Assembly: GCA_937922805.1 (NCBI GenBank)
Contig: CALAJV010000015.1
Coordinates: forward strand, 62,001-126,000
Source of the DNA: an uncultured Acidimicrobiales bacterium
GTDB lineage: Bacteria > Actinomycetota > Acidimicrobiia > Acidimicrobiales > SZUA-35
Direction of reading: 5' to 3'
Length of the DNA: 64,000 nt
Below the pieces are notes generated by a model. That model worked only from the letters and a program-made list of their open reading frames with translations, had not been told where the DNA came from and did not search any database. This document shows positions 4,291 through 23,764 of the stretch, in pieces. Position 1 is the first letter of the stretch. Every line of letters starts with the position of its first letter. Made by a program: the position numbers and the translations under genes.

Positions 4291-5511
4291 CTAGCGAAGA
4301 ACAATCTCGGCCCAACGCTCGGTCCAGTCTGATCGGTTGGCTTCGATCTCGGCTGGGCTCAAGCTGAGCGGGTCTCCGGGATCGGCAGCATGGGTCACGA
4401 ACAGATCCGGGACGACAGCTTTTGAGTTGGCCGGAGCAACGAACATGTTAAGAGGAATGTCCTCTTGGAATGTCTCTGACAACATAAAGTCGACCAGCAA
4501 ACCAGCCGCATCAGGTTGGTCAGTTCCAGCTAGGACACCGGCAAATTCGATTTGGCGGAAACAGCTATCGGTCAGCACGCCGGTTGGTGCAACGTCAGTA
4601 GGTGTTTCGGCAAACAATACAGCTGCTACGGGGCTAGACGCGTATGACGTAACCAGACTTCGGTCTCCGCCGCCGGCTATGAACTCGCCGTAGTATGCCT
4701 CGGACCAACCCGGGGTGACCGATACCCCCCCATCAGCGAGTTTTTGCCAATAGTCTTCCCAACCGTCCTCGCCGTACTTAGCAATGGTGGCGAGAAGAAA
4801 CGCGAAACCAGGAGAGGACGTCTCCGGGTTCTCAGTGACGAACTGCGACGCAAACTCTGGCTCAGCTAGGTCGTCGAGCGTTGAGGGCACAGTATCGCCC
4901 ACAGCGTCGATCCAATAATTCACACAAACATCGCCGACATCAATTGGTGTGACTCGGTATTCGGGGTCAAGCTGCAATTCGGTTGGAACATCGCTAAGCA
5001 AAGGCGACTTATGAGGAACAAACAGATCAGCATCGAGGCCTCGCTGCAAAAAGGTGTTATCTATTCCGAACAGCACATCAGCTTCGGGCTCGCCCGCCGT
5101 CAACACAGCCCGAGCAACCAGCTCGCCCGCGTCACCGCCCTGGATAACATTCACGTCCACCCCTGTCTCGAGGGTGAAGTTGTCAAAAAGGCCGTCGCTA
5201 ACCGAGAAGGAGTCGTGGGTTAGCAACGTTACTTCGGTGCCAGGCGCGATAGCTACCGGGTCGGAATTACTGTCAGAATCGTCACTGTCGTTGGCCCCTT
5301 CTTCCGAGCCAGGCTCTTCGTCGGCGCTTGCTTGATCAGAGCTGCCGTCACCGTCTTGACCGGTTCCGTTCTCAGTCTCTGAGTCGACTCCTGCCGGGTC
5401 GACCTCGTCTTGGTCAGCCGAAACGCCAGCTGTTTCCTCGCCCTCTGACGAGCAGGCGGCTAGCGTCAGTCCCGTTGCAAACGCGACGGCTACTAATTTC
5501 CGATAGTTCAT
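4291..5511 (-). CDS. thiB: Thiamine ABC transporter, substrate-binding lipoprotein
   Basis: An extracytoplasmic solute-binding protein of about 406 residues. It begins MNYRKLVAVAFATGLTLAAC, a lipoprotein signal ending in the lipobox LAAC. About 65 acidic and serine-rich residues follow as a flexible linker, then a periplasmic-binding fold starting near EVTLLTHDSFSVSDGLFDNF, which is the usual ThiB/TbpA opening. GDAGELVARAVLTAGEPEADVLFGIDN also fits. I chose ATG 5511 because GGGAG at 5517-5521 sits 5 nt upstream; the ATG at 5523 lies before that site and inside the riboswitch region. Expression is likely shut by thiamine pyrophosphate. Confidence 0.9.
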   Translation of the reverse strand: MNYRKLVAVAFATGLTLAACSSEGEETAGVSADQDEVDPAGVDSETENGTGQDGDGSSDQASADEEPGSEEGANDSDDSDSNSDPVAIAPGTEVTLLTHDSFSVSDGLFDNFTLETGVDVNVIQGGDAGELVARAVLTAGEPEADVLFGIDNTFLQRGLDADLFVPHKSPLLSDVPTELQLDPEYRVTPIDVGDVCVNYWIDAVGDTVPSTLDDLAEPEFASQFVTENPETSSPGFAFLLATIAKYGEDGWEDYWQKLADGGVSVTPGWSEAYYGEFIAGGGDRSLVTSYASSPVAAVLFAETPTDVAPTGVLTDSCFRQIEFAGVLAGTDQPDAAGLLVDFMLSETFQEDIPLNMFVAPANSKAVVPDLFVTHAADPGDPLSLSPAEIEANRSDWTERWAEIVLR

Positions 5512-5514
5512 AGT

Positions 5515-5606
5515 TTCTCCCATTCGCTGGCATTATCCAGATCAGGTTCAGCGGGTCGACAGCGATGCTGTCCTCTCAGCCCGGCATTTCCGAGCTCCCC
5601 GGTCTC
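5515..5606 (-). promoter_or_regulatory. TPP riboswitch (THI element)
   Basis: Read on the minus strand, the leader of thiB carries the strongly conserved thiamine pyrophosphate aptamer blocks in order: GGGGAGC near 5594-5600, GGCTGAGAGG, a small variable hairpin (GACAGC...GCTGTC), ACCCGCTGAACCTGATCTGG, then TAATGCCAGCG. The 3' edge of the aptamer runs directly into the thiB Shine-Dalgarno sequence GGGAG (5517-5521). No separate terminator hairpin is visible between aptamer and start codon. Control of translation initiation is therefore more likely than transcription termination. Confidence 0.95.
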
Positions 5607-5744
5607 TTTAATTTGCGAGTGCTGCTCTACAGCGCAGAGCCAACTGCTAGCTACTTGAGACGCCAGTTGGCGTGACACTCGTGGGACTATTCTAACCAAC
5701 CTGCTTGCTAGAAACACCTAGCGCTGAACGGCCAGGAGTTGGAT

Positions 5745-23345: not shown

Positions 23346-23458
23346 CCGACGAACACTAGCCGCCGCAGCTCACCGAGCGCTCGGTTTCGGGCCAATCGGC
23401 TCCCCGGCAACCCAATCGATTCCACATTCGGGCTGACTAAGGCGATATCTTAGGGTTC

Positions 23459-23764
23459 ATGGATTTTGCAATAAGCGACCTAGCTATGGATGTTGTTCGA
23501 GACAAAGGTGGCACGGTTGCCATCGATTACATTCAACCAATTGGTTGAGGCGGCGTTTCTGCGGTGTCGGTCGACACCTACCTCAAAGGCAAGAACACCT
23601 CTAACTACAAACGCATCCACCATGAAGACATCACAATAATGGTTGCTCAAGTTCTGGCGCAGAACTCAAGCAAGGTCGAATTGGTCACCAAGAAAAAGTT
23701 GCTGGGCTCGAAACTAGTTGCGGTCGCCCACCACAAACACACCGCCGCCTGTCGCCACGACTAA
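23459..23764 (+). CDS. Candidate small selenoprotein with in-frame UGA
   Basis: A frame of 101 codons from ATG 23459 to TAA 23762-23764, broken only by TGA at 23546-23548 (codon 30). The first part reads MDFAISDLAMDVVRDKGGTV then AIDYIQPIG; the part after the UGA reads GGVSAVSVDTYLKGKNTSNY and ends HHKHTAACRHD. Both halves look like real protein in the same frame, and the UGA falls in a Gly-x-Gly turn after a strand, where a redox Cys would fit. A SECIS-like hairpin follows at once. The N-terminus recalls small HesB/IscA-like proteins, but I cannot assign a family. A gene caller would give only the part from GTG 23564 (66 aa). The alternative is a pseudogene with a nonsense mutation. No good ribosome site precedes the ATG; a leaderless transcript is possible. 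Confidence 0.66.
23546..23585 (+). promoter_or_regulatory. Bacterial SECIS-like hairpin after the UGA
   Basis: Beginning 15 nt after the UGA codon at 23546-23548, GGTGTC (23563-23568) pairs perfectly with GACACC (23573-23578) around the loop GGTC (23569-23572). In the E. coli fdhF SECIS the apical loop is also GGUC, and the distance from UGA to loop is 18 nt there and 20 nt here. TGAGG (23546-23550) can also pair with CCTCA (23581-23585), placing the UGA in a basal stem. No other hairpin of this kind is needed to explain the coding sequence. Confidence 0.62.

Follow-up and report, generated by a model that had tools for sequence, protein, structure and literature searches.

A probable selenoprotein with a predicted IscA-like fold in an uncultured Acidimicrobiales bacterium

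A 101-codon frame with one in-frame UGA, encoded in a 64,000-nucleotide stretch of DNA from an uncultured Acidimicrobiales bacterium (contig CALAJV010000015.1; the whole stretch is referred to here as the window), almost certainly specifies a selenoprotein, a conclusion that stands on comparative evidence and not on biochemistry. Taking the data as a whole, the best explanation, and one that we consider fairly probable, is that the gene encodes a selenol-based redox selenoprotein built on an IscA-like scaffold, redox chemistry being its most likely role. The features on which this reading draws are collected in Table 1.

Table 1. Features of the selenoprotein gene and its surroundings (window coordinates)
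Feature	Position	Strand	Remarks
TATCTT, possible sigma-A -10 element (inferred)	23446..23451	+	7 nt before ATG; leaderless mRNA
Predicted selenoprotein gene	23459..23764	+	101 residues with Sec30; ATG start at 23459, TAA stop at 23762-23764; frame kept across UGA, purifying selection on both sides
UGA codon 30, predicted to be read as selenocysteine	23546..23548	+	UGA or Cys only in relatives
Putative SECIS hairpin GGUGUC-GGUC-GACACC	23563..23578	+	6-bp stem, apical loop GGUC at 23569-23572
Cys98, C-terminal Cys (HTAACRH)	23750..23752	+	second UGA there in Chloroflexi relatives and L067

A reading frame conserved across UGA

The frame comprises 101 sense codons, the UGA included, and this single UGA is flanked by Gly29 and Gly31 (G-U-G). 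A 66-residue open reading frame that starts at GTG 23564 is also present and is what a gene caller would keep. The original prediction, made from the letters of the window, had described the frame, the position of its UGA between two glycines and the truncated caller product, and its coordinates and residues were correct throughout.

The first search, through 61 genomes drawn from the genus, family and order of the window's bacterium, recovered a relative in 32 of them, with the whole 101-residue frame conserved through the UGA at 36–72% identity. Exactly one in-frame TGA occupies the codon-30 position in 30 of these 32 relatives, and selA is present in all 30 UGA-carrying genomes; the other two relatives (G015 and G025, from one genus) have Cys (TGT) at this position, and both genomes are without selA. 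Wider searches added relatives from Chloroflexi and from one 'Acidobacteria' metagenome bin, as well as three further Cys forms within the same phylum (L094, L095 and L097), two of whose three genomes are without selA. Conservation of the frame through the UGA extends to three reported phyla; a search for plasmid or viral relatives of the protein found none. Altogether, no residue besides Sec or Cys was seen at the site, and the Cys form, carried by five relatives, coincides with the loss of selA in four of the five genomes. Genome G481 (L094) has selA, yet its protein is of the Cys form. On either side of the UGA, silent differences between the window gene and its relative L002 far outnumber those that change an amino acid (pN 0.17 and pS 0.94 on the 5' side, pN 0.21 and pS 0.54 on the 3' side).

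The putative SECIS hairpin starts 20 nt after the UGA. According to the published rules, a bacterial SECIS element has a stem of 4–16 bp and a loop of 3–9 nt whose first two positions include a G, lies 16–37 nt from the UGA and has a minimum free energy of -7.5 or lower (PMC13188914); the hairpin at 23563-23578 lies within all of these bounds, with its 4-nt loop, 6-bp stem, 20-nt distance and -9.3 kcal/mol. Among 42 non-identical UGA-bearing sequences (37 for the Ser codon), the hairpin codons are frozen at synonymous sites, with GTG in 42/42, TCG in 37/37, GTC in 42/42, GAC in 41/42 and ACC in 40/42. The counts are not independent, given that the sequences are related, but the sequences come from both Acidimicrobiia and Chloroflexi and share only about 40% identity at the protein level. 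Equally conserved residues outside the hairpin drift in codon (Gly at +14, for example, is GGC in 29/42), and the stem is broken in all five Cys-bearing genes, which retain only three of the six pairs. When the window stretch was recoded at random with synonymous codons drawn from local usage, all six pairs formed in 10.6% of draws and the exact hairpin in 0.44%. The pattern TGA-N12..24-GGTGTCGGTCGACACC has 27 matches in 26 of the 61 genomes, nearly all of them in this gene, and its reversed control has zero matches in the 61 genomes. One match, at G026:C77:43149-43180, is the only one outside the gene family. Rfam returned no SECIS match for the hairpin, the hit being a chance snoRNA, and since single-sequence folding of the 71-nt stretch is not significant (z -1.3), the case for a SECIS element rests on codon conservation.

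The machinery for selenocysteine insertion is encoded in the window's own genome: selA and selB adjoin each other (G000:C4:104990-107265), a tRNA-Sec with anticodon tca (UCA) is present, and the selD gene (L073, G000:C4:6795-7718) is of the Sec type, with a UGA of its own in the motif UGCKLAP, and is itself a selenoprotein gene. Models for selB, selD and tRNA-Sec also match weakly in Sec-less genomes, and matches were counted only above the curated cut-offs. The ribosome would read the UGA at codon 30 as Sec with the aid of SelB, tRNA-Sec and the hairpin that closely follows the codon.

These data bear on two ways of reading the UGA as something other than Sec. That the frame is a pseudogene, or two unrelated short frames around an ordinary stop, finds in its favour only that gene callers see a stop, and is refuted by the conservation data, namely the frame kept across three reported phyla, the purifying selection, the frozen hairpin and the full Sec machinery; we regard it as hardly credible. 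Decoding of the UGA as Trp or another residue, whether by a variant code or by plain readthrough, has a negligible probability as well and is rejected on conservation: no support for it was found, the homologues have Cys and never Trp, and both the tRNA-Sec with its UCA anticodon and the SECIS-specific codon constraint argue against it. By the same comparative measure, the frame is a real selenoprotein gene and more than a product of chance. The original prediction of one selenoprotein spanning the UGA had named homologues across the codon, a SECIS element and selA, selB, selD and selC as the support to look for, and an ordinary non-Cys codon in close relatives as evidence to the contrary; it is borne out by the homologues in 32 of 61 genomes, where only UGA or Cys was seen, by purifying selection on both sides, by the bacterial-type hairpin downstream of the UGA and by the complete set of genes in the same genome.

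Family placement and predicted fold

The NCBIfam model NF041239 ('CC/Se motif (seleno)protein') matches residues 1-78 of the window protein with 33.1 bits (E 4.5e-8), under its curated cut-off of 40 bits, and the model also finds each of the 45 aligned relatives at E <= 0.1. NF041239 features a Cys immediately ahead of the Cys/Sec; this Cys is absent here, where Gly29 precedes Sec30. L066, which scores above the cut-off, has the motif GCCGG, and in the MAFFT alignment its two Cys flank a gap beside the Sec column, the exact register being set by eye. With a score below the cut-off and no Cys before the Sec, the protein is therefore not an NF041239 member by NCBI's rule and, judged from these profile matches, is a distant relative that forms a sister subfamily. 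The original prediction had left the family unnamed; the protein is related to the known NF041239 family of hypothetical (seleno)proteins, although its score lies under the cut-off. NF041239 is a hypothetical protein first predicted in Moorella. A 2026 review describes it only as a hypothetical protein, with no fold or function given (PMC13188914). Neither Pfam nor a sequence search of the PDB returned a match for the window protein, Pfam was equally without a match for 45 relatives, and TIGR01911 (HesB-like selenoprotein) has no match among the 45 alignment members at E <= 0.1.

The AlphaFold model, obtained with a 45-row alignment, has a pLDDT of 83.3, a pTM of 0.72 and the topology E-H-E-E-E-E-H-E-E, with a C-terminal tail of low confidence (pLDDT 37-61). 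Every Foldseek match at E <= 0.001 is SufA, IscA or HI1723, and VIA, run on the predicted model, gives Z-scores of 9.2 for SufA, 9.1 for IscA and 8.2 for DsrR, the next unrelated fold following at 2.2. When the profile is compared by hhalign with that of A-type carriers from this bacterial family, IQPIG-U aligns with VRPGG-C and Sec30 with the Cys of CSG, at a probability of only 42% and an E-value of 2.6e-4. With hmmscan, the A-type carrier model PF01521 has no match at E <= 1 for the 45 members. We consider it very probable that the window protein has an IscA-like fold, and the predicted model, together with the weak profile alignment, would let Sec30 occupy the position of these carriers' first cluster-binding Cys.

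Most relatives end in a short tail with one Cys (HxH...CRH); this Cys is missing from L026 and L028, so that the family as a whole does not depend on Cys98. A second in-frame UGA replaces the codon of the C-terminal Cys in the Chloroflexi relatives L045, L047, L048, L050 and L052-L055 and in L067, where it is followed by AH, SH or QH and the stop. Several of these two-UGA relatives have a strong hairpin 3' of the second UGA, in the 3' UTR, the best being GGAGCACC-GGUC-GGUGCUC in L067 and GUCCGGC-GGUC-GCCGGAC in L054. Exchange of Cys and Sec is seen at the positions of both Sec30 and Cys98, and on the sequence data the two-UGA relatives probably contain two Sec residues, each UGA being served by a SECIS element.

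IscA binds its cluster or metal through Cys35, Cys99 and Cys101. The main rival to a redox role is a selenium-containing metal or Fe-S carrier, in which two subunits would use Sec30 and Cys98 (or Sec) as ligands of a [2Fe-2S] cluster or a metal ion, with help from the His residues of the tail. Such a carrier would fit the predicted IscA/SufA fold, the location of Sec30 at the first ligand Cys and the His- and Cys-rich tail HHKHTAACRH. However, the three ligand Cys of A-type carriers, one internal and two in a C-terminal CxC, are replaced here by Sec30 and a single tail Cys, and that Cys is itself lacking in two relatives. An ordinary A-type carrier with CGCG is already present in all 13 family genomes that were checked, including the window's own, and the window protein is therefore not the household carrier. 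The SigR-type promoter of the relatives, considered below, would suit redox defence at least equally well, although Fe-S repair genes can likewise respond to stress. On balance, we regard a carrier function as rather unlikely.

Promoters and a possible role in thiol stress

The sequence GGAA(N)-N17-19-GTT occurs in 18 of 47 upstream stretches of 80 nt, where 0.4 would be expected from shuffles, and in 15 of the 47 it ends 6-13 nt before the start, nearly always with N18. Many relatives at the family level thus carry such a promoter, of the leaderless kind, immediately ahead of the gene. The SigR consensus of Streptomyces is GGAATN18GTT (PMC2375139), and SigR and SigH control thiol homeostasis and the response to oxidative stress (PMC10012870). 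A stricter, leaderless version, GGGAAT-N18-GTT-N7..12-ATG, was found in 31/31 family genomes, with few matches in the reversed control; leaderless SigR-type examples are L098, L104, L109, L110, L115, L116, L120, L128, L132 and L140. The genes sampled behind the motif, some of which resemble chance matches, include those for thioredoxin, redoxin/TlpA-like, OsmC, CMD/AhpD-like, glutaredoxin, Rv2466c-like and SelO proteins and ECF sigma factors, and in the window's own genome the motif precedes genes for redoxin, OsmC and DUF427. Since the motif stands before thiol-redox and ECF sigma genes across the family genomes, a SigR-type promoter is at work in the family. No SigR-type motif was found in the 250 bases upstream of the window gene, nor is one seen ahead of the copies in its genus, and the link to thiol stress is for that reason drawn from the relatives. 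The window gene and its genus have a sigma-A-like TANNNT 6-7 nt ahead of the ATG, and 14 of 27 relatives have a TANNNT 5-8 nt ahead of the start. Elsewhere in the window, on the minus strand, there is a TPP riboswitch (RF00059, 60.8 bits; 5501-5611).

The promoters of the relatives suggest that the protein helps the cell to cope with oxidative damage to thiols. In the mechanism that we propose, Sec30 would act as a reactive selenol and form a selenylsulfide with Cys98, its counterpart in Chloroflexi would form a diselenide with the second Sec, and the protein would belong to a SigR-type response by which this bacterial family meets thiol-oxidative stress. A thiol/selenol redox role in thiol stress is the function that we somewhat favour. 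More tentative is the combined picture of IscA-fold selenoproteins with Sec at one or both cluster-ligand positions, belonging to a SigR-type thiol-stress regulon, in which a carrier scaffold was turned into a selenol or diselenide enzyme and, in Chloroflexi, two UGA codons each have their own SECIS element. The same scaffold could also serve another selenium chemistry, as a selenium-sulfur transferase or as a binder of soft metals or organic electrophiles. Several functionally uncharacterized selenoproteins are part of metal-detoxification or sulfur pathways (PMC13188914), and no dedicated or conserved operon partner was found, the gene's neighbours varying between genera; yet none of these neighbours points to metals or sulfur transfer, and we deem this reading improbable.

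The relatives' promoters provide a first functional lead for the family, and the predicted IscA/SufA fold is the one now assigned to a selenoprotein family that has been listed only as hypothetical. The gene also adds a selenoprotein subfamily that curated models miss, so that it would be cut or lost in annotated genomes. The exchange of Sec and Cys at two places of one scaffold, likely two-Sec proteins included, makes it testable how Sec arises on a metal-carrier fold.

Comparison with known systems

The window protein shares with NF041239 a Sec or Cys at, or adjoining, the same site, and differs from it in the G-U-G motif and the added C-terminal His/Cys tail. Judged by its name, TIGR01911 is a further HesB/IscA-type protein with Sec (PMC13188914), but its motif is UxGP, whereas that of the window protein is GUG. 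To the IscA/SufA/ErpA carriers (PF01521) the protein is linked by its predicted fold (Z about 9) and by the position of the first reactive Cys or Sec, and from them it is set apart by about 10% identity, the lack of a Pfam match and a C-terminus without CxC. With respect to the SigR/SigH regulon of Actinomycetes, although the motif was not seen before the window copy, the promoter of its relatives, GGAAT-N18-GTT, is identical to the published SigR consensus.
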